Below are positions 1 through 29,264 of a DNA stretch of 64,000 nucleotides, one piece after another. This DNA comes from Microbacterium sp. Marseille-Q6648 (lineage in GTDB: Bacteria > Actinomycetota > Actinomycetes > Actinomycetales > Microbacteriaceae): contig NZ_CALPBZ010000002.1 of assembly GCF_943181415.1 (NCBI RefSeq), forward strand, positions 496,001-560,000, written 5' to 3'. Under the pieces are notes generated by a model, which saw only the letters and a program-made list of their open reading frames with translations, did no database searches and had not been told where the DNA came from. The stretch's first letter is position 1. Each line of letters opens with the position of its first letter. A program made the position numbers and the translations under genes.

Positions 1-414
1 CTCCTCGGGCGGCGTGTCGGGTCCGAGACCGCGAATCCAGTCGAGGATGCTCCACCGCTCGACGACCGCGTCCTGCTGCGCAGGCTCCACCCACTCGGCG
101 GTCCAGTCCTCGGGGTCGAGCAGGGCCGTGTCGAACGCGGCGGACGCCCACGGCGTCCACCCGCCCGGCGTGCGACTGCGCACCCGCCACGTGTAGGCGG
201 TGTTCGAGGCGAGCTCTTCGCCGCCGTAGGCGACGAGGGAGATCTGGGCGCTCTCGACGACGCCGGTCGCCCAGACGGTGCCACCCGCGGTCGCCACCTC
301 AAGCTCGTACCCCTCCTGACGGTGGTCGACGATCCACGAGAAGCGCGGATGCCGCGTGCCGACGCCGATCGGCGCACGCAGGTACTCCACCCGAAGCTCG
401 CGGCAGGTGCTCAT
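1..414 (-). CDS. alpha-L-rhamnosidase (GH78), N-terminal part, cut by window edge
   Basis: The first 138 codons read on the minus strand. The N-terminus runs LRVEYLRAPIGV followed by PRFSW, the typical opening of large GH78 alpha-L-rhamnosidases, with an Ig-like beta-sandwich repeat (TAYTWRVR, then WTAEW) before the catalytic part, which lies off the window. The ATG at 414 is preceded by GGGAG eight bases upstream. It begins 22 bp after the upstream FAH gene stops, so it is probably the next gene of that operon. Expected role: releasing terminal L-rhamnose from plant glycosides. The second GH78 gene at 6246 lacks this N-terminal domain, so the two are not simple duplicates. Confidence 0.85.
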   Translation of the reverse strand, partial: MSTCRELRVEYLRAPIGVGTRHPRFSWIVDHRQEGYELEVATAGGTVWATGVVESAQISLVAYGGEELASNTAYTWRVRSRTPGGWTPWASAAFDTALLDPEDWTAEWVEPAQQDAVVERWSILDWIRGLGPDTPPEE

Positions 415-436
415 CCGACCGTCTCCCGTCGCCGGC

Positions 437-1309
437 TCACCGTGCGGCGGTGAACCGCGTGGTCAGGGCGCCGATGCCTTCGATCTCGCTGACGAGGACG
501 TCGTCCGGCCCGATGAACCGCGGCGGGGTGCGGCGGTTGCCGATCCCCGACGGGGTGCCCGAGAAGATGAGGTCGCCAGGCAGGAGGGGGCAGACCGCCG
601 AGAGGCGCACGATCAGCTCGGGCACGTCATAGAGCATCATCGACGTCCGCGAGGACTGCATGCCCTCGCCCGAGAGCGAGCAACCGATCGCCAGGTCGTC
701 CTTGTCGGCGAACTCGTCGGGCGTGACCAGCCACGGCCCGGTCGGACCGAAGCCGGGGAATGACTTGCCGAGGCTGAACTGGGGTGCCGAGCCCTGCAGT
801 TGGGTGATCCGCTCCGAGAGGTCCTGGCCGATGGTGAGACCGGCGACGTGATCCCACGCCCGTTCGCGGTCGACGCGGTGGGCCTCGGGCCCGATGACGA
901 CGACGAGCTCGACCTCCCAGTCGACGTTGCCCTCGGGGAGTTCGACCACGGCATCCGGACCGACGATCGATGTCGGGAACTTCGTGAACGTCACCGGCAT
1001 GGAATCCGGCGGGTATCCGGCCTCGGCCGCGTGCTCGGCGTAGTTCAGGCCGATGGCGAACACCTGGCGCGGGCGCGGGACCGGGGCTCCCAGCCGAGCG
1101 ATGTCGAAGTCTTGGCGCGCGGCATCGCCGGCACCCGACGACCGGGCCGGGTCCTCACGGACGGCCGAAGCCCACGCGACGAACCCCTCCCACTCGTCGA
1201 ACAGCGATTGCGGGTCGGGACCGAAGCGGCCGTCCGAGGCGTCGTGGACGTCGACCGCGCCGGCCTCGAGGACGAGGACGGCGCGGCCGGCGAGATTGGC
1301 GAGCTTCAC
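437..1309 (-). CDS. fumarylacetoacetate hydrolase (FAH) family protein 1
   Basis: About 290 residues. The FAH C-terminal fold is clear: WEVELVVVIG near residue 131 supplies the metal-binding Glu pair E132/E134, and GQD near 161 supplies the Asp. These enzymes split C-C bonds of diketo acids or decarboxylate them using Mg2+ or Mn2+. The GTG at 1309 is chosen because it overlaps the upstream FAH stop as GTGA, a translational coupling layout; a longer frame upstream exists but would run deep into that gene. With the neighbouring rhamnosidase and two SDRs, a role as 2,4-diketo-3-deoxy-L-rhamnonate hydrolase is inferred. Cleavage of an aromatic ring-fission product is the alternative. Confidence 0.8.
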   Translation of the reverse strand: MKLANLAGRAVLVLEAGAVDVHDASDGRFGPDPQSLFDEWEGFVAWASAVREDPARSSGAGDAARQDFDIARLGAPVPRPRQVFAIGLNYAEHAAEAGYPPDSMPVTFTKFPTSIVGPDAVVELPEGNVDWEVELVVVIGPEAHRVDRERAWDHVAGLTIGQDLSERITQLQGSAPQFSLGKSFPGFGPTGPWLVTPDEFADKDDLAIGCSLSGEGMQSSRTSMMLYDVPELIVRLSAVCPLLPGDLIFSGTPSGIGNRRTPPRFIGPDDVLVSEIEGIGALTTRFTAAR

Positions 1310-2181
1310 CAGTCGACCCGCTGCGGGGCGGGCTCGCCGTAGCGGTCCTCCCACGAGATCACGGTGTTGCGGAGGGTCCCGATGCCGGTGATCTCGGCCT
1401 CGATCTCGTCGCCGGGCTTGAGGTAGAAGTCGAAGGGGTTCGGCTGCACCGCGGCCACGCCCGAGATCGTGCCGGTGGTGATGATGTCACCCGCGCTGTA
1501 GATCTGCGGCGAGTGGTAGGCCACCAGGTGAGGGAATTTGATGCGGGTCTGGTTCGTGTTGCCCTGCTGGCGCACCTCGCCGTTGACGCGCAGCTGCATC
1601 GGCAGTTCGTGCATGTCGGGAACTTCGTCTCGCGTGACGATCCACGGGCCGATCGGGCAGAACGTGTCGATGCCCTTCGAGAAGGAGAAGACACCCGATT
1701 CCATCTCTTTGCGCTGGATGTCGCGCGCGGTGATGTCGTTGAACACCGTGAACCCGGCGATGTAGTCGTCCGCCTCGTCGGGGCCGAAGAACTTGCCCGG
1801 CTTGCCGATGATGATGCCGAGCTCGAGCTCGTAGTCGAGTTCTTTCGTGAGGCCCTCGGGGTAGACGATGTCGTCGTCCGGTCCGATGATCGCGTCGACG
1901 TTCTGGAAGAACACGATCCCCTTGTGCACCGGGTGGGACCAGTCGACGGCGGTGAGCTCGTTGTGGTGGTCGGCGAAGTTGCCGGCTGTGTGGAAGAACT
2001 TCTTGGGGCGGATGGGCGCCTCGAGCTTCACGTCGGCGTAGGCGAGCCGCTCGCCGGTCTCGCGGACGTCGCCGCCGCGCTCGAAGTACTCGCGGGTCGA
2101 GGGCACGTCCAGTTCGAGGACCACGCCCTCTTCGAGCTCGAGACGACCCACGCGGCCGCCGTCGAAGGTGATGAGTTTCAT
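1306..2181 (-). CDS. fumarylacetoacetate hydrolase (FAH) family protein 2
   Basis: 291 residues, an FAH-superfamily hydrolase with metal ligands visible as DYELELG (E118/E120) and NDITARD (D149). The ATG at 2181 has AGGAG six bases upstream. It is only distantly similar to the downstream FAH protein (different N-terminal half), so the pair is more likely to act on different substrates or form a hetero-complex than to be a recent duplication. It lies between an SDR gene (26 bp upstream) and FAH 1 (4-base overlap). In known L-rhamnose and L-fucose pathways an FAH enzyme cleaves the 2,4-diketo acid to pyruvate and lactate; that assignment here is inference from context. Confidence 0.82.
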   Translation of the reverse strand: MKLITFDGGRVGRLELEEGVVLELDVPSTREYFERGGDVRETGERLAYADVKLEAPIRPKKFFHTAGNFADHHNELTAVDWSHPVHKGIVFFQNVDAIIGPDDDIVYPEGLTKELDYELELGIIIGKPGKFFGPDEADDYIAGFTVFNDITARDIQRKEMESGVFSFSKGIDTFCPIGPWIVTRDEVPDMHELPMQLRVNGEVRQQGNTNQTRIKFPHLVAYHSPQIYSAGDIITTGTISGVAAVQPNPFDFYLKPGDEIEAEITGIGTLRNTVISWEDRYGEPAPQRVDW

Positions 2182-2207
2182 GTTTCTCCTTGGTTCGGCG
2201 TCGGCGC

Positions 2208-2999
2208 TCAGGCGCCGACCATGTTGAAGCCGCCGTCGGCGAGCAGGTACCCGCCGGTGAGGTGGGCGGACTCGTCGGTGGCGAGCCACAGGCACGTTCC
2301 GGCGACGAACTCGGGTGGCGGGATGACGCCCATCGGCGTCTGCGAGATGAGGACTTCGCGCCGGCCGCTCTTCCAGTCCTCGCGTTCGAGCAGCCGCTCG
2401 GTCTCCATGAAGCCGGGCGCGAAGGTGTTGACGCGCACCGCGGGGGCCAGCACCTTGGCGTAGGACTTGGTGATCCCGAGGATTGCGTATTTCGCCGCGG
2501 CGTACTGCGGGGCGCGGGGCGACCCGCGCACGATCACCGTCGAGCCGACGTTGATGATGTTGCCGTGGCCCTGCTCGAGCATGCGCTCGCCGAACTCGTG
2601 CGTCATCAGCAGCGTGCCCTTGACGTCGACGTCGACGACCGCGTCGAGCGCCTCCTGCGTCAGATCGCGCCACGACATCTGCTCGCTCGAGACGTCGCCG
2701 ACGTTGTTGACGAGCACGTCCAGCACCCCGAACGCGGCGAAGACCTCGTCGGCCATGCGCTTGATCTCGGCCCACGAGCCGATGTCACCCTGCACGAGGA
2801 TGCCGTCGCTGCCGGCTTCGCGAATGCGTTCGAGGGTCTTCTCGGCGCCCGCCTTCGACGAGCGGTAGTGCACGGCGACGCGCCCGCCCTCCTGGGCGGC
2901 GCGCACGGCGATCTCGGCACCGAAGCCGGTGCCGGCACCCGTGACGAGCACGGTCTTGCCCGCGAAGCGCGGGTAGATCTGCGGTGTGGAGTCGGTCAT
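2208..2999 (-). CDS. SDR family NAD(P)-dependent oxidoreductase 1
   Basis: 263 residues, a classical short-chain dehydrogenase. The TGAGTGFG dinucleotide-binding loop is at residues 20-27, NNVG at 98-101, catalytic Ser at about 153 and the YAAAK motif at 166-170. HYRSSKAG after the second strand suggests NADP preference, since a basic or Ser residue replaces the NAD-selective Asp. It is the second gene of the operon reading toward the rhamnosidase. A sugar-acid or sugar dehydrogenase (L-rhamnose 1-dehydrogenase or 2-keto-3-deoxy-L-rhamnonate 4-dehydrogenase) is the best guess from the FAH and rhamnosidase neighbours; the sequence alone does not fix the substrate. Confidence 0.85.
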   Translation of the reverse strand: MTDSTPQIYPRFAGKTVLVTGAGTGFGAEIAVRAAQEGGRVAVHYRSSKAGAEKTLERIREAGSDGILVQGDIGSWAEIKRMADEVFAAFGVLDVLVNNVGDVSSEQMSWRDLTQEALDAVVDVDVKGTLLMTHEFGERMLEQGHGNIINVGSTVIVRGSPRAPQYAAAKYAILGITKSYAKVLAPAVRVNTFAPGFMETERLLEREDWKSGRREVLISQTPMGVIPPPEFVAGTCLWLATDESAHLTGGYLLADGGFNMVGA

Positions 3000-3026
3000 A
3001 TGTCTCTCCTATCGTCCTTCGTCGTC

Positions 3027-3830
3027 TCAGACCAGCGTCCGGCCGCCGTCGATGTACATCACGTGGCCGGTGATGAACCCGGCGTGACGCGAAGACAGGA
3101 ACAGCGCGGGCCCGGTCAGCTCGTCGGGGGTGCCCAGGCGGCCGGCGGGCACGAGGCTTTCGAGGTCGGCGCGCTTGCCGGGCTTGGCCAGTTCACCCGC
3201 CGTGAGCGGGGTCTCGATGTATCCGGGGGCGAGCGCGTTGACCGTCACACCGGACGACGCCCACTCCCGCGCCATGACGCGCAGCAGCTGATTGATGCCG
3301 CCCTTCGACGCGGCGTACGGGCCGTGCGAGTGGTGGGCCAGCAGCCCCGAGACGCTCGACAAAGCCAGCACGCGGCCGTAGCCCTGGGCGACCATGTGTC
3401 GTCCTGCCGCCTGGGCGAGGCCGAAGACCGACGAGAGGTTCACGCGAAGGATGTGGTCCCATTCGTCCTCGGTGAACTCCAGGATCGGGCGACGGTCGTT
3501 GATGCCGACCGCGTGCAGCATGACGTCGAGCCCGCCGAGACGCCGGACGACCTCCGCGACGACGCGGTCGCCTGCGCCGTGCTCGGTGAGGTCTGCCTGG
3601 ATCAGCTGGTACGCCGCGCCGGCGGCCGCGAGCTCGCCACCGAGTGCGTCGAGCGTGCGCTGATCGCGGTCGACGACGGCCACCCGTGCGCCGGCTCCGG
3701 CGTAGGCGCGAGCACAGGCACCCCCGATGCCGCCGGCGCCGGCGATGAGAACGCGCGCGCCGTTCAGGCCCAGCCAGTCCGCGGCGGAGCTCGGGTCGTG
3801 CGTGGTCAACGCTTCGGACGTGGTCGACAT
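3027..3830 (-). CDS. SDR family NAD(P)-dependent oxidoreductase 2
   Basis: 267 residues. GAGGIGG (31-37) is the cofactor loop, VVDRD (52-56) has the acidic residue typical of NAD(H) preference, Ser is at about 159 and YAASK at 172-176. It is the first gene of the minus-strand operon, with 27 bp to SDR 1. The two SDRs differ in predicted cofactor preference, which would fit two separate oxidation steps of one sugar pathway. A 25-bp operator-like motif lies 34 bp upstream of the start, between this gene and the divergent CMD gene. Confidence 0.85.
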   Translation of the reverse strand: MSTTSEALTTHDPSSAADWLGLNGARVLIAGAGGIGGACARAYAGAGARVAVVDRDQRTLDALGGELAAAGAAYQLIQADLTEHGAGDRVVAEVVRRLGGLDVMLHAVGINDRRPILEFTEDEWDHILRVNLSSVFGLAQAAGRHMVAQGYGRVLALSSVSGLLAHHSHGPYAASKGGINQLLRVMAREWASSGVTVNALAPGYIETPLTAGELAKPGKRADLESLVPAGRLGTPDELTGPALFLSSRHAGFITGHVMYIDGGRTLV

Positions 3831-3863
3831 GCGGCTTCCCTGCCTCTTCGCGATTTACAGAGC

Positions 3864-3888
3864 GAAAGTTGGTTTCGCTGAATGAACA
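3864..3888. promoter_or_regulatory. predicted operator, site 1 of a shared 25-bp motif
   Basis: Pattern GAAA-N5-TTTC-N4-AATGAACA. Around the first half there is a perfect inverted repeat GCGAAA-N5-TTTCGC at 3862-3878. It lies in the divergent region between SDR 2 and the CMD gene. The same pattern with identical spacing recurs at 16646-16670. The nearby IclR regulator (4542) is the obvious candidate to bind it; that is inference. Confidence 0.6.
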
Positions 3889-3947
3889 TAACCGCTAGAG
3901 TGGGGCGTGTCAATCGCGGCGGTTCGCGTCGCAGAAGTGAGGTCAGC

Positions 3948-4502
3948 ATGCCGCCGCGCGTCCGAGGCCTCGCGCCCGCCGAACTGACGACGGAGCAGAG
4001 CGCCCTGTACACCGCGATCACGTCGGGGCCCCGATCTCGCGGGCCCCAGCACTTCGCCCTCAGCGCGCCCGACGGGTCGCTGCGCGGTCCGTTCGATCTG
4101 ATGCTCCGCTCCCCCGCCGTCGGCGCCGCGCAGCAGGAGCTGGGCGCCGCGATCCGCTACCGCACCGCCCTCACCGACCGCCAGCGCGAGCTCGCGATCC
4201 TCCTCGTGGCAGCCCGCTGGGACAGCGCCTTCGAGCGCGAGTCGCACGAGCCGGTCGCCCTCGCCGCAGGTTTCAGCGACGACGACCTCCGCGCGATCCG
4301 CGCCCAGGACGTCTCGGTCTTCGGCGACGACGAGCACATCGTCGGCGTCACCGTGTCGGCACTCCTGGACGGCGATTTGTCCGACGACGAGTGGGGTGCG
4401 GCATCCGCAGCCCTCGGCCCCGAGGGGGTCTACGAGCTCACGGCGCTCGTCGGCTACTACGGAACCCTTGCGCTGCAGCTGCGGGTGTTCCGGGTCGGGT
4501 GA
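3948..4502 (+). CDS. carboxymuconolactone decarboxylase-like (CMD/AhpD fold) protein
   Basis: About 184 residues. The RQRELAILLVAARW stretch followed by E-x-SHEPVALAAG is the CMD-family signature; the CxxC of peroxidase-type AhpD proteins is absent. The ATG at 3948 (GTGAGG upstream) is preferred over 3882, whose codons would cover the operator motif. It diverges from the SDR/FAH/rhamnosidase operon and precedes the IclR gene by 39 bp, so it is probably co-regulated with sugar or flavonoid use. Members of this family are often orphan lyases or decarboxylases in aromatic clusters; the substrate is not known. It is not PcaC, which is encoded at 18150. Confidence 0.7.
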   Translation: MPPRVRGLAPAELTTEQSALYTAITSGPRSRGPQHFALSAPDGSLRGPFDLMLRSPAVGAAQQELGAAIRYRTALTDRQRELAILLVAARWDSAFERESHEPVALAAGFSDDDLRAIRAQDVSVFGDDEHIVGVTVSALLDGDLSDDEWGAASAALGPEGVYELTALVGYYGTLALQLRVFRVG

Positions 4503-4541: not shown

Positions 4542-5357
4542 ATGAAAGCCGACGAGTCCGCTGAGGTGGGCGGAGAAGCAGCCAAGACCGGCAGCCGCTA
4601 TCGCATCGAGGCCCTCGCGAAGGGGCTCGATGTGCTGCGGCTCTTCGACGAGACGGTCACGACACTCAAGCTCCGCGAGATCTGCGACCGCACCGGCATC
4701 CCGATGCCCACCGCGTTCCGGGTGGTGGCGACCCTCGAAGAGGGCGGCTATCTCGAACGCCTGCCCGACGGCAGCATCCGTCCCGGCGTCTCCGTGCTGC
4801 TGCTCGGCTCGGCCGCGCTGCGCGGATCGAGCCTGGTCCAGCTGAGCGAGCAGCCGCTGCGGCACCTCGCCGAGGAGTCCGGCGAGACCGTCAACCTCGG
4901 CGTACTCGTCGGCGACCAGGTGCTCTACCTCGCGCGGCTGCGCAACTCCGACCTGGTGACCGCGAACATCCAGGTCGGCTCCACCCTGCCGGCCGCCTAC
5001 ACCTCGATGGGCAAGCTGCTGCTCGCCTACCTCAGCGAGGCCGAGCTGAAGTCGACGCTCGCGACCCACGATTTCGGGGCGGATGCCGGCCCCAACGCCG
5101 CACGATCGCTGAAAGAGCTGCGTGAACGGCTCGCATCGATTCGCGAGCAGGGCTACTCGCTGCAGGATCAGGAGGTGGCGGCCGGACTTCGATCGGTGTC
5201 GGTGCCGGTCTTCGGCCGCGATGCGGCCAAGCCCGCGGCGGCGATCAATATCGCGGTCGCCTCGTCGCGTCATGACGTCGCGTCGCTCCGAGGCCCGCTG
5301 CTGACCCGGCTGCGAACCACGGCCGACGAGATCTCGCGACTGCTGCGCGCGACCTGA
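4542..5357 (+). CDS. IclR-family transcriptional regulator (glycoside/rhamnose locus)
   Basis: 271 residues with an N-terminal winged helix-turn-helix (LREICDRTGIPMPTAFRVVATLEEGGYLE, about residues 44-72) and a C-terminal IclR effector-binding domain (GDQVLYLARL, then SMGKLLLAYL). A possible -10 TACGGT lies 8 bases before the ATG, so the mRNA may have almost no leader. It ends 4 bp from the convergent esterase gene. Its position between operons A and B and beside operator site 1 makes it the likely regulator of rhamnoside uptake and breakdown, sensing a sugar acid or phenolic product. Confidence 0.88.
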   Translation: MKADESAEVGGEAAKTGSRYRIEALAKGLDVLRLFDETVTTLKLREICDRTGIPMPTAFRVVATLEEGGYLERLPDGSIRPGVSVLLLGSAALRGSSLVQLSEQPLRHLAEESGETVNLGVLVGDQVLYLARLRNSDLVTANIQVGSTLPAAYTSMGKLLLAYLSEAELKSTLATHDFGADAGPNAARSLKELRERLASIREQGYSLQDQEVAAGLRSVSVPVFGRDAAKPAAAINIAVASSRHDVASLRGPLLTRLRTTADEISRLLRAT

Positions 5358-5361: not shown

Positions 5362-6249
5362 TCACCGTGCCCGGACGGCATGCTCGAGCAGCTGCAGGGT
5401 GTGCTCCGCCGCCGGGTGGCCGATCTCATTGAGATAGCCGTGCATCGCGCCGCGCTCGCGCACGACCCGGACGTCGACGCTCGCCGCCGCCAGCTCGGCC
5501 GCGAACGCCTCGCCCGAGGGCCGTAGGCTGTCGAGCTCGGCGTTGACGATCAGCACCTCCGGCAGGCCGACGAGGTCGTGTCCGCCCGGGAACGCGTAAC
5601 CGTCGGGGTCGTGACCGTCGGGCAGATAGTTGCGGTTTATCGCCGCCCGGCTCTCGGGCGTGAACAGGCGCGCCGGCGGAACGCCCTCGAGAAGCTCGGC
5701 GGTCTCGTCGTTCGGGTCGAGGATGCCGTCGTGAAGCGACGGGTAGACGAGCGCGAGCACGCGTGGCGCCGTCGTACCGCGGTCGCGCAGCCGCATCGCG
5801 GCACCCGCAGACAGGTTCGCGCCGGCGCTCGCACCGCCGAGCGAGACGCGCTCGGGGTCCGCACCGTAGGTGCGCGCGTTCTCCACCGCCCAGTCGAAGG
5901 CGGCGACGATCTGCAGGTTTGCGACCGGGAAGCGCGCCCGGGGGCCCGCCGCCTCCATCTCGGCGCGGATCTCTTCGGGAGAGGGGATGTCCGCGTCGGG
6001 GTCGGGCGGGCCGAGCACCTCGAGCGCGTCGAGGGGCGCCAGCGTGTAGTCGACCGAGACCACCGTGATGCCGGCGGCGCTGAGACGCCGGCCGACCTGA
6101 TCGGCTTCGGGCATCTCGAGCGTCCCGAACATGAACGCGCCGCCGTGCAGCCAGACGAGCATCGCGCCGTTCGGCTCGGAAGCGGGATAGACCCGCACCC
6201 GGAAGTCGTGACCGCCACCCTGCAACGCCACGTCGTGTGTCTCTGTCAT
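5362..6249 (-). CDS. alpha/beta-hydrolase, HSL-type esterase
   Basis: 295 residues of the hormone-sensitive-lipase esterase group: oxyanion motif HGGAF (35-39) and nucleophile elbow GASAG with Ser at 141; the Asp/His pair lies near NAELDSLRPS and the HGYLNE segment. No signal peptide, so cytoplasmic. Its ATG overlaps the stop of the GH78 gene (ATGA, 6246-6249), giving last position in operon B. Such esterases take small acyl or aryl esters. In this setting it could deacylate decorated flavonoid glycosides or hydrolyse the quercetinase depside product, a role that the other esterase at 8534 could equally fill. Confidence 0.85.
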   Translation of the reverse strand: MTETHDVALQGGGHDFRVRVYPASEPNGAMLVWLHGGAFMFGTLEMPEADQVGRRLSAAGITVVSVDYTLAPLDALEVLGPPDPDADIPSPEEIRAEMEAAGPRARFPVANLQIVAAFDWAVENARTYGADPERVSLGGASAGANLSAGAAMRLRDRGTTAPRVLALVYPSLHDGILDPNDETAELLEGVPPARLFTPESRAAINRNYLPDGHDPDGYAFPGGHDLVGLPEVLIVNAELDSLRPSGEAFAAELAAASVDVRVVRERGAMHGYLNEIGHPAAEHTLQLLEHAVRAR

Positions 6250-8498
6250 GCCATCACTCCTTCACTCGAGGCGCGGACGTGGGTGCCCGCACCGAGGACT
6301 TCTTCCTTCCGCCCCGGAAGTCGCAGCACGGCCTCGGCCCCCGCGGGCACGGTGACCTCGACGCGCATTCCGGCATCCCCGAGATCCCACCGCACCGCCG
6401 CGCGTCCGTAGGGGGTCTGCAGACCCGTCTCGGCCCACGTGATCCCGCCGCCGGGCTGCGGCGCGATCAGGATGCGACGGTAGCCGGGTTCGAGCGGCGC
6501 GAGTCCGCCGACCGTGCGGTGCATCCAGTCCGCGACAGCGCCGAACGCGTAGTGGTTGAAGGAGGTCATCTCGCCGGGGTTGATCGAGCCGTCCGGCAGC
6601 ATCGAGTCCCAGCGCTCCCAGATGGTGGTCGCACCCATCGTGACGGCGTACAGCCATGACGGCGCTTCGCGCTGCAGCAGCAGGGCATAGGCGTCGTCGA
6701 GGTGCCCCGTCGTGGTGAGCGCGTCGCACACGAACGGGGTTCCGGCGAAGCCGGTGCTGATGCGATGGTCCGCCGCACGCACGAGTTCGGCGAGGCGGTC
6801 GCCTGCTCTCCGGCGGTCGGCGTCGTCGAGGAGTCCGAAGGCGATCGCGAGCGCGTACGCGGTGGCGCTGTCGCTCTCGACGCGGCCGTCCCGCACGTAC
6901 CGGGCGCGGAACCCCTCGCCGATGCGGTCCCGCAAGGCGGCGAACTCCGCCGCGTCCGCGGACTCACCGAGGATCTCGGCGGCTTCCGCCACCATCGTCG
7001 CCGTCCGGAACGCACTGGCCGTGGCCACCACTTCGGCCGGGGCTTTGGACTTGCCCGGGTCGTCGGCGGGGGCGTCCGGGTCGAGCCAGTCACCGAATTG
7101 GAAGCCGGTGTCCCAGACGGCGTCGGGAGCCAGCGCGGCGGCCACGCTGCGGGTGTGCGCGGTCATGAGCGGGTAGGCCTCGCGCAGCGTCCGCTCATTC
7201 CCGTAGGCCTGCCACAGCGCCCACGGCACCCACACCGCAGCGTCGCCCCATACGGCGGTCGCGCCGGGCTCGGGAAAGCCGGTGTCGAGATACTTCATGA
7301 CATTCGGCACGACGACGGGCACGGAGCGCTCCGGGGTCGCCCGCCGCTCGAGCTCGACGTCGACGAGCCAGTCGGCCAGGAACGACTCGACGTCGCCGAG
7401 GAACGCGGCGGTCGGGGCGAACACGGCCAGATCGCCGGTCCAGCCCAGGCGCTCGTCGCGCTGGGGGCAGTCTGTGGGGACGCTCAGGAAGTTGCCCTTC
7501 ATGCCCCAGGCGACATTCTCATGCAGTCGGTCGAGCTCGGGATTCGAGCAGGCGAACGATCCGATGGGCTCGATATCGGTGCCCACCACGACGGCGGTGA
7601 GCGCCGACGGGTCGAGGTCGCCCGGCCAGCCGGTGACCTCGGCGTACCGGAAGCCGTGGAAGGTCAACGTCGGCTCGAACACGTCGTCGCCGCCCGACAG
7701 GATGAAGCGATCGGTCGCCTCGGCGCGCCGCAGGGGGCGCGTGCCGAGTTCGCCGTGCTCGAGCACCTCGGCATGACGCAGCACGATCTCGGTGCCGACC
7801 GGTCCCGAGACCTGCACCCGCACGAAGCCGACGAGGTTCTGGCCGAAGTCGACGAGCGTCTTCCCGGCGGGCGACGTCCAGATGCGCTCGACGGCGCGCT
7901 CGCCCAGCCGCCGCACCGCGGGCGAGGTGCGGGGGACGAGCCGCTGCGGGTCGACCTCGACCGTCGCGACGGCATCCCAGCCGGAATCGTCGAACCCGGG
8001 ATGCTGCCAGCCCGAGTCCCCGAGCCGCGCGTCGATGGTCTCGCCGTTGTAGAGATCGTCGGCGAGAACCTCGCCCGTCGACGCCCGCCACGAGCCATCG
8101 GTTCCGACCGTCTGCACGTGGCCGTCTGCGAACTGCACTTCCAGCTCGGCATAGCCGGCGCGTTCGTCGCCGTACACCGCGCGCTGGCCGGTGAACCCGA
8201 GCCACCCGCGATACCAACCGTTGCCGAGCCGCAGGGCGATGACCGTGCGTTCGGTGACGGCATCCGTCACGTCGTGCTCGATGACCCGCACGCGCCATTC
8301 GTAGCTCGTCCATCCGGGCGCGAGCAGCTCGTCCGAGGTCGGGATGCCGTTCACCCACGACTCGACGACACCGAGAGCGCTCGTACGCAGCGTCGCCCGG
8401 GCGACCGCGCCGTGGCCTTCGTCGAGCGCGAACTCGCGGCGCAGCAACGGCGCAGCGTCGGTCGGATGCAAGGGGGCGATCATCGTCGCGTGAGTCAT
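6246..8498 (-). CDS. alpha-L-rhamnosidase (GH78)
   Basis: About 750 residues. The hallmark GH78 motif DCPQRDERLGWTGDL is at residues 343-357 with the catalytic acid Glu inside it, preceded by HGFRYAEV (281-288), and the (alpha/alpha)6 barrel follows. It starts at the rhamnosidase N domain (WVNG at 48) and lacks the additional N-terminal Ig-like module seen in the partial GH78 at 1-414. No signal peptide, so intracellular, which fits import of intact glycoside by the ABC system. The ATG at 8498 has GAGAGGACC upstream; a longer frame upstream overlaps another gene and is rejected. Likely substrates are rutin, quercitrin or similar rhamnosides. Confidence 0.92.
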   Translation of the reverse strand: MTHATMIAPLHPTDAAPLLRREFALDEGHGAVARATLRTSALGVVESWVNGIPTSDELLAPGWTSYEWRVRVIEHDVTDAVTERTVIALRLGNGWYRGWLGFTGQRAVYGDERAGYAELEVQFADGHVQTVGTDGSWRASTGEVLADDLYNGETIDARLGDSGWQHPGFDDSGWDAVATVEVDPQRLVPRTSPAVRRLGERAVERIWTSPAGKTLVDFGQNLVGFVRVQVSGPVGTEIVLRHAEVLEHGELGTRPLRRAEATDRFILSGGDDVFEPTLTFHGFRYAEVTGWPGDLDPSALTAVVVGTDIEPIGSFACSNPELDRLHENVAWGMKGNFLSVPTDCPQRDERLGWTGDLAVFAPTAAFLGDVESFLADWLVDVELERRATPERSVPVVVPNVMKYLDTGFPEPGATAVWGDAAVWVPWALWQAYGNERTLREAYPLMTAHTRSVAAALAPDAVWDTGFQFGDWLDPDAPADDPGKSKAPAEVVATASAFRTATMVAEAAEILGESADAAEFAALRDRIGEGFRARYVRDGRVESDSATAYALAIAFGLLDDADRRRAGDRLAELVRAADHRISTGFAGTPFVCDALTTTGHLDDAYALLLQREAPSWLYAVTMGATTIWERWDSMLPDGSINPGEMTSFNHYAFGAVADWMHRTVGGLAPLEPGYRRILIAPQPGGGITWAETGLQTPYGRAAVRWDLGDAGMRVEVTVPAGAEAVLRLPGRKEEVLGAGTHVRASSEGVMA

Positions 8499-8533
8499 GG
8501 TGGTCCTCTCGAGGTCGTGCGCGCGGTTCGGGT

Positions 8534-9322: not shown

Positions 9323-9326
9323 GGCC

Positions 9327-10003: not shown

Positions 10004-10021
10004 TTAGCCTCAGGCTAAGAT
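10004..10021 (+). promoter_or_regulatory. LysR promoter: perfect 15-bp palindrome overlapping a TAAGAT -10 box
   Basis: TTAGCCT-C-AGGCTAA (10004-10018) is a perfect palindrome that also satisfies the LysR T-N11-A rule. Its right arm runs into TAAGAT (10016-10021), which lies 6 bases before the ATG at 10028. This predicts a leaderless message and autorepression by the LysR protein, with the same site able to act on the divergent quercetinase promoter. Confidence 0.6.
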
Positions 10022-14846: not shown

Positions 14847-14901
14847 CATCACTCCCTGGTGTCCGGTGCGGCGACCCGGAGGCCGCCGCACCGGAGGCGG
14901 G

Positions 14902-18560: not shown

Positions 18561-18562
18561 CG

Positions 18563-22359: not shown

Positions 22360-22402
22360 ATCGGTCTCCTTCGACGCGGTGTCGTGAACCACTTCCGGGC
22401 CG

Positions 22403-22461
22403 CGTGCGCACGTCGCCCCCGCGTGCGTGGTTTCCACGCACGGCGGGGGTGCGTGCGCACG
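22403..22461. repeat. paired CGTGCGCACG element 2
   Basis: Palindromes at 22403-22412 and 22452-22461, starts 49 bp apart. Between them is a G/C-rich inverted repeat around GTGCGTGG-TTT-CCACGCAC. It lies between the divergent pcaH and IclR genes, so it cannot simply be a terminator. Confidence 0.85.
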
Positions 22462-22519
22462 CGCCCCGGCACAGGTGTGGGTATCGTCTCGCGTGAGGGC
22501 GGCGGGTGGCGGGGGCCAT

Positions 22520-22537
22520 CCCGCTCAATGGGAATCC
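22520..22537. promoter_or_regulatory. predicted PcaR/PobR-type operator A
   Basis: CCCGCTCAATGGGAATCC. It matches 15 of 18 bases of the motif before pobA (23323). It overlaps the -35 position of a promoter whose -10 (CAGGAT, 22552-22557) is 6 bases before the GTG at 22564, which would suit autorepression of the regulator. Confidence 0.55.
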
Positions 22538-22563
22538 GACTCGCGTCGTGCCAGGATGCTGTC

Positions 22564-23316
22564 GTGGCGAACTCCCCCTCCGGCGACTCGGTGACCGAGC
22601 GGTTCGTGCGCGTCCTCGAGACCTTCACCCCGACGCGCACGGCGCAGACCGCCGCCGAGATCGGCCGCCGGGCCGGGCTCCCGTCGTCCTCGGCCCACCG
22701 GATCGTAGGCGAACTCATTGACTCCGGTCTCCTGGAGCGCGACGACGATCGCCGCATCCGCATCGGCATGCGCCTGTGGGAGCTGGCGACCCGCTCGTCC
22801 CACGCCCTCCGTCTCCGCCAGGCCGCATTGCCGTTCATGGAGCGCGTGCAGGCCCGCGTGCGCGAGCACACGCAGCTGGCGATCCTCGAGCAGGATGAAG
22901 CGCTCTTCCTCGAGAGGCTCAGCGGACCGGCATCCGGATCGAACGTCACCCGCGTCGCCGGGCGGCTCCCGCTGCACGCGTCGTCGTCGGGGCTCGTGCT
23001 GCTCGCCTTCGCCGACCGCGCGCTGCAGGAGCGGGTCCTCGCCGCACCCCTGCGCGCCCTCACGCGTTCGACGCCCACCGATCCGGCCGGCCTTCGCCGC
23101 AAAATCGACGAGGTCCGCACCCTCGGCCACGCCATCGCTCCCGGGTACATCGAAGAGGTGTCGACCGGCATCGCCGTGCCCGTGCACGACGAGACCGGCG
23201 CGACCGTGGCGGCGCTGTCGGTCGTTCTCCCGCGCGACGCGCAGACCGACTACGCCCTCGTCGAGCTGTACCGCGCGGCGCGGGACATCGAGCGCGCGAT
23301 GGGCTACCGCCGCTGA
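22564..23316 (+). CDS. IclR-family regulator of the pca/pob genes
   Basis: About 250 residues: winged HTH (TAAEIGRRAGLPSSSAHRIV, about residues 25-44) and IclR effector domain (LPLHASSSGLVLLAF; IAVPVHDETGATVAALSV). GTG at 22564 is chosen over the in-frame ATG at 22528 because the latter would place the operator inside the gene, and CAGGAT sits 6 bases before the GTG. It lies between the divergent pcaH operon and pobA, as PcaR, PcaU and PobR regulators do. It probably binds the AATGRGAATCC motif in both flanking promoters in response to protocatechuate or 4-hydroxybenzoate. Confidence 0.88.
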   Translation: MANSPSGDSVTERFVRVLETFTPTRTAQTAAEIGRRAGLPSSSAHRIVGELIDSGLLERDDDRRIRIGMRLWELATRSSHALRLRQAALPFMERVQARVREHTQLAILEQDEALFLERLSGPASGSNVTRVAGRLPLHASSSGLVLLAFADRALQERVLAAPLRALTRSTPTDPAGLRRKIDEVRTLGHAIAPGYIEEVSTGIAVPVHDETGATVAALSVVLPRDAQTDYALVELYRAARDIERAMGYRR

Positions 23317-23322
23317 CGACAG

Positions 23323-23340
23323 CCCGTTGAATGAGAATCC
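23323..23340. promoter_or_regulatory. predicted PcaR/PobR-type operator B (pobA)
   Basis: CCCGTTGAATGAGAATCC, 76-59 bp before the pobA ATG. A -10-like CAGGAT lies at 23367-23372, so this site is upstream of the expected -35 and fits activation. Confidence 0.55.
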
Positions 23341-23398
23341 TTCGACGGATGCCGTGTCCGCCGGTCCAGGATGAGACGCCCCCGTCGAAGGAGACGTC

Positions 23399-24577
23399 AT
23401 GACCACCACCGTCCGCACCCGCGTCGCGATCGTCGGCGCCGGTCCCGCCGGCCTGCTGCTGTCGCACCTGCTCGCCGAAGCCGGCATCGAGTCGATCGTC
23501 GTCGATCAGCGCACGCGCGACGAGATCGAGAGCACCATCCGCGCCGGCATCCTGGAGCAGGGGACCGTGGATCTTCTCGCGCAGATCCCGGGCTCGCGCG
23601 TGCACACGGTGGGCACCCGGCACGACGGCATCGAGCTGCGCTTCGACGGGCACGGGCACCGCATCGACTTCCCCGGGCTGGTCGGCAGGAGCGTGTGGCT
23701 GTACCCGCAGCACGAGGCGCTGAAGGACCTCATCGCCGCTCGCCTCGCCGCCGGTCAGGATCTGCGCTTCGGGGTCACGGTCGACCGGGTCGAAGGGGCC
23801 GAGACCGACCGGCCCTCGGTGTTCGCGACAACCGCCGAGGGCGAGGACCTGCAGCTCGAGGCCGACTTCGTCGTGGGTGCCGACGGGTCCCGCTCGAACG
23901 CGCGCGTCGCCGTGGCGGGTTCGCACACCGGCGGGTACTTCCGCGAGTACCCGTTCGCGTGGTTCGGCATCCTGTGCGAGGCGCCCGCGAGCTCGGAGGA
24001 GCTCATCTATTCGAACTCGCCCGACGGGTTCGCCCTCATCAGCCAGCGCTCGGCGACCGTGCAGCGGATGTACTTCCAGTGCGACCCCGACGCCGACCCG
24101 CATGCGCTCAGCGAGGCGGAGATCTGGGACACCCTGCAGAAGCGCGTGCCGGGCACGACGCTGACCGAGGGGCCGATCTTCCAGCGCGACGTGCTGCGGT
24201 TCCGCAGTTTCGTCGCCCACGAGCTGCGCCGCGGACGCGTGGCGATCGTCGGGGATGCCGCGCACACCGTGCCGCCGACCGGCGCCAAGGGCATGAACCT
24301 CGCGGTCGCCGACGTGATCCTCCTGGCGCAGGCTCTCGAGAGCCTGCTCAGTGGCGGAGACGAGCGGCTCATCGAGGGGTGGGCCGAGAAGGCGCTGCGG
24401 CGCATCTGGAAGGCCCAGCACTTCTCGTGGTGGATGACCTCGATGCTGCACGTTGCGCCGGACGCGTCCGACTTCGACCGTCTTCGCCAACTCGGCGAGC
24501 TGCGCTCGGTGGTCGAGTCCGAGGCGGGCCGCACCTACCTCGCCGAGGCGTACACCGGCTGGCCGCTCGAGCCCTGA
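23399..24577 (+). CDS. pobA: 4-hydroxybenzoate 3-monooxygenase
   Basis: 392 residues, the usual PobA length. The FAD-binding GAGPAGLLLSHLL is at 13-25, RAGILEQGTVDLL (44-56) is diagnostic of PobA, the DG motif is GADGSRSNAR, and GDAAHTVPPTGAKGMNLA is the second FAD motif. It makes protocatechuate from 4-hydroxybenzoate with NAD(P)H and O2. The ATG has GAAGGAGACGTC upstream. It feeds the divergent-side pcaHGBDC operon and is probably activated by the adjacent IclR regulator. Confidence 0.97.
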   Translation: MTTTVRTRVAIVGAGPAGLLLSHLLAEAGIESIVVDQRTRDEIESTIRAGILEQGTVDLLAQIPGSRVHTVGTRHDGIELRFDGHGHRIDFPGLVGRSVWLYPQHEALKDLIAARLAAGQDLRFGVTVDRVEGAETDRPSVFATTAEGEDLQLEADFVVGADGSRSNARVAVAGSHTGGYFREYPFAWFGILCEAPASSEELIYSNSPDGFALISQRSATVQRMYFQCDPDADPHALSEAEIWDTLQKRVPGTTLTEGPIFQRDVLRFRSFVAHELRRGRVAIVGDAAHTVPPTGAKGMNLAVADVILLAQALESLLSGGDERLIEGWAEKALRRIWKAQHFSWWMTSMLHVAPDASDFDRLRQLGELRSVVESEAGRTYLAEAYTGWPLEP

Positions 24578-25433: not shown

Positions 25434-25463
25434 ACCCCTAGGGTGTCGCGACCGACGGGGCCG

Positions 25464-25626: not shown

Positions 25627-26505
25627 ATGCCCGCTACCCCGCACCTGCTCGCCGACCACGCCTGCCTCATCGTGCACGGCAAGGACCAGCCGGGGATCGT
25701 CGCCGCGGTGTCGGCGCTGATCACCCGTCACCGGGCGAACATCGTCGCCTTCGACCAGTACTCGGATGACCCGACGGGCGGCGCGTACTTCCAGCGCGTG
25801 GTCTTTCACCGCCCCGAGCTGGCGGCCGCCCTGCCGGAGATCGAAGCGGACCTGGCGACCACCCTCGGCGACGGGTTCGACCTGGAGTGGACCATCACCG
25901 ACCAGTCGGTGCCCAAGCGCATGGCGATCCTCGCGTCGAAGCAGGACCACTGCCTGCTCGATCTGCTCTGGCGCCACCGCCGCGGCGACCTGCCGGTCAG
26001 CATCCCGATGGTCGTGTCGAACCACACCACCTCGGCTGAGGATGTGCGCTCGTTCGGCGTGCCCTTCTTCCACGTCCCCTCGGTGACCGGGCCCGACAAG
26101 TCCGCGTCCGAGGCGAAGATCCTCGATCTGCTGCGCGGCAACGTCGACTTCGTGGTGCTGGCCCGATACATGCAGATCCTGTCCCCGGACTTCCTCGCGC
26201 AGCTGGGCGTGCCGGTGATCAACATCCACCACTCGTTCCTGCCCGCCTTCATCGGCGCCGAGCCGTACAAGAAGGCCAAGGAGCGCGGCGTGAAGCTCAT
26301 CGGCGCGACGTCGCACTACGTCACCGGCGACCTCGACGAGGGCCCGATCATCGAGCAGGACACGGTGCGGGTCACGCACGCCGACACGACCACCGAACTC
26401 GCCCGCCGCGGCGCCGACGTGGAGCGTCAGGTGCTCTCGCGCGCCGTGCTGTGGCACGCGCAGGATCGTGTCATCCGCCACGGCAACCACACGATCGTGT
26501 TCTGA
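25627..26505 (+). CDS. purU: formyltetrahydrofolate deformylase
   Basis: 292 residues. An N-terminal ACT domain (CLIVHGKDQPGIVAAVSAL) is followed by a formyltransferase-like hydrolase domain with the catalytic NIHHSFLPAF and HYVTGDLDEGPIIEQD. It hydrolyses 10-formyl-THF to formate and THF. CAGAAT lies 6 bases before this ATG, a weak leaderless promoter. Its presence between pobA and vanAB may not be accidental: vanillate demethylation releases one-carbon units (formaldehyde) that load the folate pool, and PurU would help drain it. That link is inference. Confidence 0.93.
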   Translation: MPATPHLLADHACLIVHGKDQPGIVAAVSALITRHRANIVAFDQYSDDPTGGAYFQRVVFHRPELAAALPEIEADLATTLGDGFDLEWTITDQSVPKRMAILASKQDHCLLDLLWRHRRGDLPVSIPMVVSNHTTSAEDVRSFGVPFFHVPSVTGPDKSASEAKILDLLRGNVDFVVLARYMQILSPDFLAQLGVPVINIHHSFLPAFIGAEPYKKAKERGVKLIGATSHYVTGDLDEGPIIEQDTVRVTHADTTTELARRGADVERQVLSRAVLWHAQDRVIRHGNHTIVF

Positions 26506-27132: not shown

Positions 27133-27147
27133 CCCGGGCGCTCAGGT
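27127..27147. terminator. short inverted repeat spanning two convergent stop codons
   Basis: ACCTGA (27127-27132) and TCAGGT (27142-27147) form a 6-bp stem with a 9-nt G/C loop. The stops of the PadR gene and vanB are themselves the stem bases. It may act as a weak two-way terminator; no T-run is seen. Confidence 0.35.
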
Positions 27148-28128
27148 CAACTGAAGGTCGATGCGCGGCGGGGTGCCGCCGCCCTCGGCCGAAACGCGCG
27201 ACACGCACACGCACACTTTCGTCATCGCGTGTCGCTGACGCTCGCTGTAGAAGACGTCACGGTGGTCGATGGTCCCCTGCAGTGAGAGCACCCGCGCCTC
27301 GCAGAGGCCGCACTCGCCCTTCCGGCAGTCCGAGAGGGCGTCGACGCCCGCGGCCTCCAGAGCCTCCAGGATCGACTGGCCGGGCCCGACCCGACACTCC
27401 ACTCCGATGGCGGGGATGCCGACGACGAACGGCTCGGGAGCGAACCAGCCGCTGTTGCCGAACGTCTCGAACCGCAGCGACGTGACCGGGCGCCCCGCCT
27501 CGGCCCACGCACGGCGCACGGCGTCCATGAGGCGGATCGGGCCGCACAGATAAAGCTCGGTACCCGCCGGCAGATTCTCGACATAGGCCTTGACGTCGAG
27601 CGGCGTCGCCTCGTCACGGACGTGCACGTCGAGCCGGTCGCCGTGCTCGGCGGCCAGGTCCTCGAGGTAGGCCATCGCATCGCGACGGCGTCCGGTGTAC
27701 GCGACCCGGTAGTCGGCGTGCCGCTGACGGGCGGCGCGCGCCATCCCGAGGATCGCGGTGATGCCGACCCCGCCCGCGAGAAAGGCGTAGCGTGGTGCCC
27801 CCGGGCGGAAGGGGAAGTCCTGCCGCGGATCGGTGACATCGATGACGTCCCCGGCCCTGAGCGCATGCATGACGCGCGCGCCACCGCGAGAGGTCTCGCT
27901 GTCGAACACGCTCAGCGCGTAGTCGCCGTCGTCGCCCACCGGCTCGACCACGGAGTACGACCGCTCGAGAACCTCACCCCCGCCCGTCACACGGACGTCG
28001 ACGTGCATGCCCGGCTCGATCCGGCGCGGCGCCTCGGGCGAGAGCACGATGCGGCGGATCCGTTCCGCGACCGGCCGGGAGTCGACGACCTCGGCTCGCT
28101 GCCACGACACGGTGTGAGACGCGGCCAC
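27142..28128 (-). CDS. vanB: vanillate O-demethylase reductase subunit
   Basis: About 328 residues. The N-terminal FMN/NAD ferredoxin-reductase part has RSYSVV and GGVGITAILGMA; the C-terminal plant-type 2Fe-2S domain has DCRKGECGLCEA plus a later Cys. It passes electrons from NADH to the Rieske oxygenase. The GTG at 28128 lies 1 base after the vanA stop, so the two are coupled. Reductases of this class serve several Rieske demethylases; vanillate is the best guess given the PadR gene and pca operon. Confidence 0.85.
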   Translation of the reverse strand: MAASHTVSWQRAEVVDSRPVAERIRRIVLSPEAPRRIEPGMHVDVRVTGGGEVLERSYSVVEPVGDDGDYALSVFDSETSRGGARVMHALRAGDVIDVTDPRQDFPFRPGAPRYAFLAGGVGITAILGMARAARQRHADYRVAYTGRRRDAMAYLEDLAAEHGDRLDVHVRDEATPLDVKAYVENLPAGTELYLCGPIRLMDAVRRAWAEAGRPVTSLRFETFGNSGWFAPEPFVVGIPAIGVECRVGPGQSILEALEAAGVDALSDCRKGECGLCEARVLSLQGTIDHRDVFYSERQRHAMTKVCVCVSRVSAEGGGTPPRIDLQLT

Positions 28129-28129
28129 C

Positions 28130-29218
28130 TCAGCGCTCCACGGCGTGAGCGACCGAGGAACGGCCCTCGGCGGCGAGCATGCGATCGAGGATGCGGCGCA
28201 CCCACATTCCGCCGGCATCGATGTTCAGGCTGTAGAACTCGTAGTCGGGGTTGGCATCGATCGCGGACTGCTGCGCCGCCAGCATCCGCTCATCCTCCCC
28301 GAAGACACCGTGCACGCCCTTGCGCAGCTGCGTGGTGATCAGCTGGCTGTCGAGCCGGTAGTTCCGCTGGAACGACCAGAAGTACAGACTCGTGCGGTCG
28401 GTCTCGGGCGTGATCGTGTTCATGACGTAGCCGTTCACGCCCTGACTCCGGTCCCCCTCGGGCGCCCCGGTGCCCGCCTTGGCGACACCTACGTCGATGC
28501 AGATGGTCGACGGGGCCTCGAAGTGGATGATCTGCCACCGGTCCACCCGCCCGTCGTAGTCGGGGAACTTGTCGCGCATGTTCTTGAGCCAGAACGGCGG
28601 AGGTTCGATATCGCGCATCCACCGCTCCACCGTCACGGTGGTCTCGGTATGGCTGGTGATGAACTCGGCCTCGCTCAGTTCGCGCTGCCCGATGCTCGAG
28701 GAGTGCACGAACTCCTCATGCGTGAGATCCATCAGGTTGTCGAGCACGAGCTGGTAGTTGCAGGGGGCGTGGATCAGCTCGCCGTCCCCCGTCCAGGCCG
28801 GGTCGGTCATCTGATGCATGTCGGGAATGGCGTCGGGGTCGGCGGCCGAAGGGTCGCCCACCCACACCCACACGTACCGATACCGGTCGACCGTCGGAAA
28901 CGAGGGGACCGTCGCGCTCGGGTTGATGGTCTCCTGCGCCGGCATGTGGGTGCAGCGGCCCGCCGGGTCGTACCTCAGCCCGTGGTACGGGCATTGGATC
29001 TCATCGCGGATGACCTTGCCCATCGACAGCGGGGCGAGGCGATGCCAGCACGCGTCGGCCAGCGCCACGGCCCGGCCGTCCTCGGTGCGGTACAGCGCGA
29101 GAGGTCGTCCGGCGACCGTCCGCGCCAGCGGTGTGCGGGTCACTTCGTGATCCCACGCCGCGACGTACCAGGCGTTCCGCGGGTAATCGAAGATCTTCGC
29201 GATCGTGGTGGCCGCCAT
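28130..29218 (-). CDS. vanA: vanillate O-demethylase oxygenase subunit-like Rieske protein
   Basis: 362 residues. Rieske centre CWH (C57, H59) with CPYH (C76, H79); catalytic iron motif NLMDLTHEEFVH. The ATG at 29218 is chosen (GGGAG five bases upstream); a start at 29242 would fall on the operator palindrome. It would demethylate vanillate to protocatechuate and formaldehyde, feeding pcaHG. Related Rieske demethylases accept veratrate or guaiacol-type substrates, so exact substrate is inferred. Confidence 0.85.
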   Translation of the reverse strand: MAATTIAKIFDYPRNAWYVAAWDHEVTRTPLARTVAGRPLALYRTEDGRAVALADACWHRLAPLSMGKVIRDEIQCPYHGLRYDPAGRCTHMPAQETINPSATVPSFPTVDRYRYVWVWVGDPSAADPDAIPDMHQMTDPAWTGDGELIHAPCNYQLVLDNLMDLTHEEFVHSSSIGQRELSEAEFITSHTETTVTVERWMRDIEPPPFWLKNMRDKFPDYDGRVDRWQIIHFEAPSTICIDVGVAKAGTGAPEGDRSQGVNGYVMNTITPETDRTSLYFWSFQRNYRLDSQLITTQLRKGVHGVFGEDERMLAAQQSAIDANPDYEFYSLNIDAGGMWVRRILDRMLAAEGRSSVAHAVER

Positions 29219-29240
29219 CGTCACTCCCTCGTGCGAAGTC

Positions 29241-29264
29241 ATTTACCTATGTTCATAGGTAAAT
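29241..29264. promoter_or_regulatory. perfect 24-bp palindrome, probable PadR/VanR operator
   Basis: ATTTACCTATG, two bases TT, then the exact reverse complement CATAGGTAAAT. It is AT-rich in a GC-rich setting and lies 23 bp before the vanA start. It is the only such palindrome near vanAB. Confidence 0.75.

Follow-up and report, generated by a model that had tools for sequence, protein, structure and literature searches.

An island with a quercetinase-like cupin in Microbacterium sp. Marseille-Q6648 and a candidate module for the phloroglucinol half of flavonols

A candidate flavonol-glycoside regulon

Bacterial quercetinases are well studied. The stretch of 64,000 nucleotides analyzed here (the window; C2:496001-560000 in the 3.49-Mb, 8-contig genome of Microbacterium sp. 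Marseille-Q6648) contains a quercetinase-like cupin together with an ABC importer, glycosidases, esterases, two regulators, and genes encoding SDR, FAH, and CMD family proteins. After the predicted cupin and esterase steps, protocatechuate has a route and 2,4,6-trihydroxybenzoate has none. With a probability of roughly 0.55, we propose that the island is a flavonol-glycoside regulon in which an SDR-SDR-FAH-FAH-CMD module degrades the 2,4,6-trihydroxybenzoate/phloroglucinol half; all substrates and the order of the steps are predicted from sequence. A previous sequence-only reading of the window had left the fate of this half open, and the SDR/FAH genes may hold the answer. The genes named in that reading are all present at their places, as judged from Pfam, NCBIfam, and PDB matches; it gave 1306-3830 as the span of the SDR and FAH pairs, for which the genes are correct and the true extent is 437-3830.

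The conserved unit and its co-occurrence in relatives

The cupin was searched for in 299 genomes of the family and 366 genomes of the genus, and matches were found in 9 and 30 of them, respectively, with the own genome counted in both. The regions around 37 other cupins were compared. Twenty-nine of these are 40-kb regions with a close cupin (at least 43% identity), the remainder being seven with distant cupins and that of G528, and presence was called at 40% identity and half coverage (35% identity for "some GH78"). FAH1, FAH2, SDR1, SDR2, the CMD protein, IclR1, and the cupin are present in all 29 regions, with FAH1 showing the highest median identity, 93%. estA, the LysR gene, and GH1 are found in 28 regions each, the importer genes in 24 to 26, estB in 20, GH78a in 19, and GH78b in 15. 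Synteny in relatives had been set beforehand as a test of the island, and the importer, glycosidases, cupin, and esterase are syntenic there. In the genus, FAH1 (E value of 1e-100 or better) occurs in 24 of the 366 genomes; the same 24, the own genome among them, are those with a close cupin, and it is missing from the six that have a distant cupin only. In the family sample, FAH1 occurs in 9 of 299 genomes. Eight of these, again counting the own genome, are all the genomes of the sample with a close cupin; the ninth is G066, where the cupin search gave no match. These co-occurrence counts take no account of relatedness. The features of the island, in window coordinates and with counts among the 29 regions, are as follows.

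1-414, minus strand: N terminus of GH78a (904 aa, extending leftward out of the window); orthologue in 19/29
437-1354, minus strand: FAH2, proposed triacetate (beta-diketone) hydrolase; 29/29
1306-2211, minus strand: FAH1, proposed dihydrophloroglucinol ring hydrolase; 29/29, median identity 93%
2208-2999, minus strand: SDR2, NADP-type motif HY[RN]xS, proposed phloroglucinol reductase; 29/29, median identity 89%
3027-3830, minus strand: SDR1, NAD-type motif VVDR, proposed 3-hydroxy-5-oxohexanoate dehydrogenase; 29/29
3854-3886, no strand: IclR-type operator-like site TTCATT-N4-GAAAG-N3-CTTTC-N4-AATGAA, SDR1 promoter; 18/22 fixed positions
3942-4502, plus strand: CMD-family protein, candidate 2,4,6-trihydroxybenzoate decarboxylase (weakest assignment); PF02627, 29.7 bits; 29/29
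4542-5357, plus strand: IclR1 regulator (Pfam), proposed owner of the 33-bp palindrome; 29/29
5362-6249, minus strand: estB, Abhydrolase_3 esterase (Pfam); 20/29
6246-8531, minus strand: GH78b, alpha-L-rhamnosidase of ~761 aa; PF17389, 381.9 bits; orthologue in 15/29
8534-9331, minus strand: estA, BD-FAE-type esterase (Pfam), candidate depside hydrolase; 28/29
9327-9872, minus strand: monocupin quercetinase (QueD-like), from PDB matches and ligand residues; 29/29
10004-10018, no strand: LysR-type box TTAG-N7-CTAA between the cupin and LysR genes; exact match
10028-10939, plus strand: LysR-family regulator (HTH_1 and LysR_substrate, Pfam), divergent from the cupin operon; 28/29
10973-11833, minus strand: importer ATPase (DppF/GsiA type); profile matches
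11833-13986, minus strand: fused permease-ATPase (DppC-DppD type), 18-bp tandem-repeat linker at 12867-13018; profile matches
13905-14849, minus strand: importer permease (DppB type); profile matches
14902-16476, minus strand: family-5 solute-binding protein (SBP); PF00496, 165.4 bits
16602-16616, no strand: LysR-type box with 1 mismatch, importer/GH1 promoter; pattern scan
16636-16668, no strand: IclR-type operator-like site, 17/22, importer/GH1 promoter; pattern scan
16721-17965, plus strand: GH1 glycosidase, probably a beta-glucosidase; PF00232, 181.4 bits; 28/29

The quercetinase-like cupin and its esterase

The strong PDB matches of the cupin are quercetinases only, namely, QdoI/YxaG (E value of 2.5e-37), QueD (1.5e-28), and a further quercetin dioxygenase (2.1e-13), and the next class follows at an E value of 0.012. 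The metal-ligand residues, three histidines (H71, H73, and H117) and one glutamate (E78), do not vary across the 38 loci, the own locus among them. Among cupins of known structure, the nearest in sequence are thus the quercetinases, and flavonol 2,4-dioxygenolysis with CO release is predicted for it. The cupin of the window resembles Streptomyces QueD (PDB 5flh and 5fli) and Bacillus QdoI/YxaG (1y3t and 2h0v) in family and in the positions of the 3-His-1-Glu ligands, and its length is that of QueD; unlike either, it is set in a predicted regulon with an importer, glycosidases, an esterase, and the SDR/FAH module.

In all 38 loci, including the own locus and those with distant cupins, a homolog of estA is encoded no more than 160 bp from the cupin gene and in the same orientation, with 34 to 77% identity in relatives. 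The pairing extends to loci that have a distant cupin and no SDR/FAH genes, which makes estA the best candidate for the depside esterase. At the seven loci with distant cupins (36 to 41% identity), no recurrent substitute A-ring module was found among the script-called gene clusters. Some gene calls in the cupin regions and in the FAH1 loci described below were made by a simple script.

The SDR/FAH module and a possible reductive A-ring pathway

In the proposed pathway, glycosides would enter through the family-5 ABC importer, and GH78 and GH1 would strip the sugars inside the cell. The C-ring of the flavonol would then be opened by the metal-dependent cupin, with release of CO, to give a depside. 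EstA would cut this depside to protocatechuate, which would pass to PcaHGBDC and PcaIJF, and 2,4,6-trihydroxybenzoate, which would be decarboxylated to phloroglucinol by the CMD protein or spontaneously. SDR2 would reduce phloroglucinol with NADPH to dihydrophloroglucinol, FAH1 would open the ring of the latter by a retro-Claisen reaction, SDR1 would oxidize the product with NAD+ to triacetate, and FAH2 would cleave this beta-diketone to acetoacetate and acetate. FAH enzymes cleave beta-diketones, and FAH-type enzymes therefore fit both C-C steps. Judged by motif only, SDR2 is of the NADP type; SDR1 has an NAD-type motif, in which Asp54 is invariant in 11 of 11 sequences.

The anaerobic phloroglucinol pathway of Clostridium scatologenes, as given in the passages of PMC10470551 available to us, begins with an NADPH-dependent SDR, which is followed by a hydrolase that opens the ring, a dehydrogenase, and an enzyme that cleaves a C-C bond. 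The proposed order of reductase, ring hydrolase, dehydrogenase, and C-C cleavage is alike, as would be an NADPH-type SDR acting first, and the NADP- and NAD-type SDRs here could correspond to the reductase and the dehydrogenase of the clostridial route. In contrast to what those passages describe, FAH-type hydrolases would replace the cyclase-family DPGC and the BKACE-type TAL, an SDR would replace the 3-hydroxyacyl-CoA-dehydrogenase-like TfD, and the hosts are actinobacterial. No BKACE enzyme (triacetate acetoacetate-lyase type) was found in the genome, and the only intradiol dioxygenase genes found there are those of PcaH and PcaG; neither the clostridial lyase nor a hydroxyquinol dioxygenase is therefore detected, and a hydroxyquinol route for the A-ring was set aside. 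Among the open-access (PMC) papers listed, none was found on this cluster, on an FAH-based phloroglucinol route, or on the gene-level aerobic fate of the phloroglucinol-type half.

The ring hydrolase of the clostridial pathway belongs to the cyclase family according to the same passages of PMC10470551, and one cyclase is encoded in the genome, in a VOC-FAH-flavin monooxygenase-cyclase-FAH-VOC cluster to the left of the window (L242:6465-13900, C2:450465-457900). That this cluster (C2:450-458 kb) degrades the A-ring half, with the SDR/FAH module otherwise employed, is highly improbable in our estimate. The cyclase is found in 18 of the 24 genus genomes with a close cupin, lying 15 to 20 kb from it in 7 of those; however, it is found in 98 of the 366 genus genomes, including 80 of the 342 without a close cupin, and it is absent from 6 of the 24 with one. 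In addition, L242 contains no IclR-type site scoring at least 14, and the cyclase lies ~42 kb from FAH1 and thus outside the module cluster. A clostridial-type route of BKACE and cyclase was rejected, as no BKACE was found in the genome and its lone cyclase is distant and tracks the cupin poorly.

Another reading starts from the matches of the module enzymes themselves. The best NCBIfam model of both FAH proteins is 2,4-didehydro-3-deoxy-L-rhamnonate hydrolase, Lra1 is among the SDR matches, and some GH78 is encoded within 20 kb in 28 of the 29 regions, all of which would agree with an oxidative diketo-hydrolase pathway (Lra1 to Lra6) for L-rhamnose, or a related deoxysugar, released by GH78. 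The SDR and FAH families are alike in the two cases, but the rhamnose models score far below their cut-offs (176.1 and 163.9 versus 500 for the FAHs and 134.8 and 153.8 versus 400 for the SDRs). No rhamnonate dehydratase or lactonase is found among the Pfam-scanned operon genes, with six enolase-superfamily proteins above the cut-off encoded elsewhere in the genome, and a rhamnose isomerase above its cut-off is encoded ~148 kb from the island. Furthermore, the 55 module loci without a cupin described below have a GH78a orthologue in 3 cases and a GH78b orthologue in none. On the cut-offs, the absent operon enzymes, the separate isomerase, and the module distribution, the rhamnose pathway was rejected as a very unlikely role of the SDR/FAH operon, and the earlier suggestion that released rhamnose is used in parallel finds no backing in these genes. 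Elsewhere in the genome, a cluster of sugar-acid type (L246:4279-11231, C5:244-251 kb) encodes kinase-like and SDR-like proteins, by sequence reading, together with an enolase-superfamily dehydratase and an SMP30-like lactonase.

Distribution of the module without a cupin

An alignment scan of named genomes with FAH1 yielded 255 relatives, of which the best 80 were analyzed with flanks of up to 10 kb, some of them cut at contig ends, so that the presence counts are lower bounds. The hosts of these 80 loci are Microbacterium and other Micrococcales, Demequina, Actinomadura, Actinoplanes, Streptomyces, Nocardioides, and Acidimicrobiia. Two further labels are probably due to contamination or mis-binning: a contig labeled Stenotrophomonas maltophilia P13 (L159) and an Acidobacteria metagenome-assembled genome (L171) encode proteins 98% and 93% identical to the window FAH1, respectively. 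A cupin (at least 40% identity) is nearby in 25 of the 80 loci. The 55 loci without one contain SDR2 in at least 50 cases, FAH2 in 51, SDR1 in 44, CMD in 40, IclR1 in 33, and an estA homolog in 22. Being widespread without the cupin or GH78 orthologues, the SDR/FAH module is self-standing and not bound to rhamnosides.

Operator-like sites shared by the module and the importer

A 33-bp inverted repeat at the SDR1 promoter overlaps the end of a promoter-like sequence, TTGACA-17-TATGTT, and might be placed like a repressor site. In the window, only the sites at 3854 and 16636 score at least 15 of the 22 fixed positions of this IclR-type pattern, and the best scores in 20 shuffles of the window are 12 to 14. 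The promoter comparison covered 28 genomes out of the 31 that have a close cupin; G658 and G528 (on short contigs) and G292 (for no recorded reason) were left out. A site of at least 15/22 lies upstream of SDR1 in 27/28 genomes, of CMD in 25/28, of GH1 in 17/28, and of the SBP gene in 16/25, and shuffles of these four sets reach at most 14; such a site lies upstream of IclR1 in 3/28, the cupin in 2/28, estA in 1/27, FAH1 in 0/28, and LysR in 0/27. The region upstream of GH1 is largely the intergenic region of the SBP gene, and that upstream of CMD is, in the window, the intergenic region of SDR1. The LysR-type box TTAG-N7-CTAA occurs as an exact match upstream of the cupin in 24/28 genomes, of the SBP gene in 22/25, and of SDR1 in 0/28. 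The importer/GH1 promoter carries both kinds of site.

Both patterns were composed after both promoter sets had been read, so that the promoter counts are not blind. The cupin-less loci were unread before the pattern was written, and there the IclR-type site accompanies the module in 37 of 55 loci, next to 25 of 25 cupin loci (among the best 80 of 255), whereas none of 470 shuffled SDR1 upstream regions reaches 15, with up to five upstream regions taken per locus versus one per shuffle. The shuffles for the cupin-less loci and for the LysR-box counts preserve base composition only. We infer that IclR1 owns the palindrome and LysR the box, and that LysR, for the cupin operon, and IclR1, for the SDR/FAH operon, would both act at the importer/GH1 promoter.

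Several observations weigh against a flavonol-derived substrate for the module or against the predicted wiring. No match names a phloroglucinol enzyme, and the SDR matches (the best 60 of 87 and of 216) and the FAH matches are generic. The co-occurrence of FAH1 and the cupin may in part mirror transfer or inheritance as a linked block. For the IclR-type pattern, shuffles reach 15 to 16 in the cupin, estA, and LysR sets, and at the 15/22 threshold the importer is without a site in 9 of 25 genomes. The two LysR-type boxes in the window (at most one mismatch) are not rare, with 10 of 100 window shuffles having as many, and the weight of this box therefore rests on its conservation. SDR1 was undetected at 50% identity in 6 of the 25 cupin loci, all of Demequina. 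As 55 of the best 80 FAH1 loci are without a cupin, the substrate of the module need not be flavonol derived, and an amidohydrolase (PF01979) is encoded in 25 of these cupin-less loci (e.g., L184, L192, L208, L218, and L231) and in no cupin locus. The module could thus degrade another cyclic or linear beta-diketone fed by flavonol breakdown, with phloroglucinol being no intermediate. The spread of the module without the cupin, in company with differing transporters, esterases, and the amidohydrolase, is consistent with this possibility, which we consider rather unlikely in view of the exact co-occurrence with the cupin in the genus, the operator-like site common to the module and the importer, and the fit of the enzyme types to the four steps that follow decarboxylation.

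Importer, glycosidases, and the sequence left of the window

The importer genes (10973-16476) encode one permease fused to one ATPase, and the linker of the fusion is coded by an 18-bp tandem repeat of 8.4 copies (12867-13018). The best-matching permease models are of the nickel/Opp types, and the characterized QueD is nickel dependent, which would agree with an importer that supplies nickel, or a nickel chelate, to the cupin instead of glycosides. We hold this to be improbable, as the nickel/Opp models all score far under their cut-offs, the importer and GH1 have a promoter region in common, and the glycosidases, which have no evident signal peptide on reading of the sequence and are thus probably cytoplasmic, would need imported glycosides. 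The six-hairpin domain of GH78 (PF17389) scores 381.9 bits in GH78b against a Pfam cut-off of 24.5, and seven GH78 genes are present in the genome. Some GH78 (at least 35% identity) lies within 20 kb of the cupin in 28 of the 29 related regions. A Streptomyces rhamnosidase is described in PMC8749437, the available passages of which contain no such cluster.

Left of the window, the minus-strand run goes on with the rest of GH78a, pcaI, pcaJ, a pcaF-like thiolase, a PcaR-type regulator, and two deglycosidase fusions. The latter two proteins (L008:7262-10058) consist of a C-glycoside deglycosidase beta domain (CGDB) fused to an alpha-type TIM barrel, and one of them matches PDB 8qrz (435 aa) over its whole length with an E value of 1e-242. 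Farther left lie the cyclase cluster, a GMC oxidase of the glycoside 3-oxidase/pyranose oxidase type, and a second GMC protein identified by Pfam only. The two CGDB-TIM barrel proteins and the GMC oxidase are like the C-glycoside deglycosidases and glycoside 3-oxidases of soil Actinobacteria in the available passages of PMC8563793 and PMC10807413; unlike the conserved unit, these deglycosidases are not kept here, with no orthologue in any of the 29 related regions. Deglycosidase orthologues are found near the module in Naasia lichenicola (L176, with a cupin) and, as two separate pieces, in Microbacterium elymi (L196).

Protocatechuate, pob, and van neighbors

To the right of GH1, the window contains the following neighbors.

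18150-22437, minus strand: pcaC, pcaD, pcaB, pcaG, and pcaH, outside the conserved unit; pcaHG in 6/29
22501-24577, plus strand: IclR2 and pobA; pobA in 6/29
27142-29242, minus strand: vanB-like reductase and vanA-like oxygenase, not conserved with the island; 0/29

Between pobA and the van genes, a formyltransferase with an ACT domain (PurU-like, 25627-26505) is encoded, an orthologue of which is near the cupin in 1 of the 29 regions. NCBIfam equivalog cut-offs are exceeded by PcaH (338 versus 296.4), PcaG (175.3 versus 126.25), and PcaC (175.2 versus 155.7), whereas PcaD (212.1 versus 255.85), PcaB (327.1 versus 355.75), and the PcaF-like thiolase (419.8 versus 597) are below theirs. A nitrosuccinate lyase model outscores the PcaB model on the pcaB product (386.7) yet is far under its own cut-off of 650, and the names PcaB, PcaD, and PcaF follow position and the next-best evidence. 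PcaI and PcaJ exceed subfamily cut-offs of models common to ScoAB. PobA exceeds the subfamily cut-off (485.5 versus 351) but not that of the equivalog (370.5 versus 538.7). The oxygenase at 28130 has VanA_C and Rieske domains above Pfam cut-offs, and the reductase at 27142 has general reductase/ferredoxin domains only. Against the cut-off of 284.75 of the PcaR/PcaU/PobR model TIGR02431, IclR1 (172.8) and IclR2 (122.5) are below and the regulator left of the window (330.1) is above.

The sequence-only reading had taken these genes as members of a single island with the cupin. Import, trimming, cupin opening, and the esterase hold together as one unit by synteny and by operator-like sites common to their promoters, and the core is supported as one regulon. 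The pca, pob, and van genes were rejected as parts of it, which makes the conserved unit narrower than proposed: within 20 kb, pcaIJF is found in 7 of the 29 regions, pcaHGBD and pobA in 6 each, and vanAB in none. Searches for IclR-type and LysR-type sites found none close to pca, pob, or van in the window, nor any close to pcaIJF in L008.

The order pcaH-G-B-D-I-J-F is contiguous in four relatives (G199, G525, G016, and G292) and runs from pcaH to pcaJ in G438 as far as the region extends; in G042, the pca genes are adjacent, with pcaI and pcaJ in the opposite orientation. In the own genome (L008:10195-13560 and window 18150-22437), the same order is interrupted: pcaI and pcaC are ~20.6 kb apart, with the island in between, and a pca operon split by insertion or rearrangement would be the simplest reading. 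Read-through from GH78a to pcaIJF is not claimed, as the 139-bp gap has a GC-rich hairpin and its own inverted repeat, of which no further copy was found in the window; a terminator scan gave one site, on the other strand only.

Implications for flavonol use in Actinobacteria

Tentatively, and with somewhat less than even confidence, we suggest that phloroglucinol is degraded in Actinobacteria by an aerobic reductive pathway, encoded by the recurrent SDR-SDR-FAH-FAH-CMD-IclR module, in which FAH-fold enzymes would do both retro-Claisen cleavages, and that in Microbacteriaceae this pathway is wired, via a shared IclR operator at the importer, to the quercetinase regulon for complete use of flavonol glycosides. 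Because the module recurs in several actinobacterial groups and has an operator-like site of its own, the fate of the A-ring can be tested directly. In addition, FAH-family enzymes would gain a new role as C-C hydrolases, and the module can serve to mark, in genome sequences, bacteria with a possible capacity for complete flavonol use.

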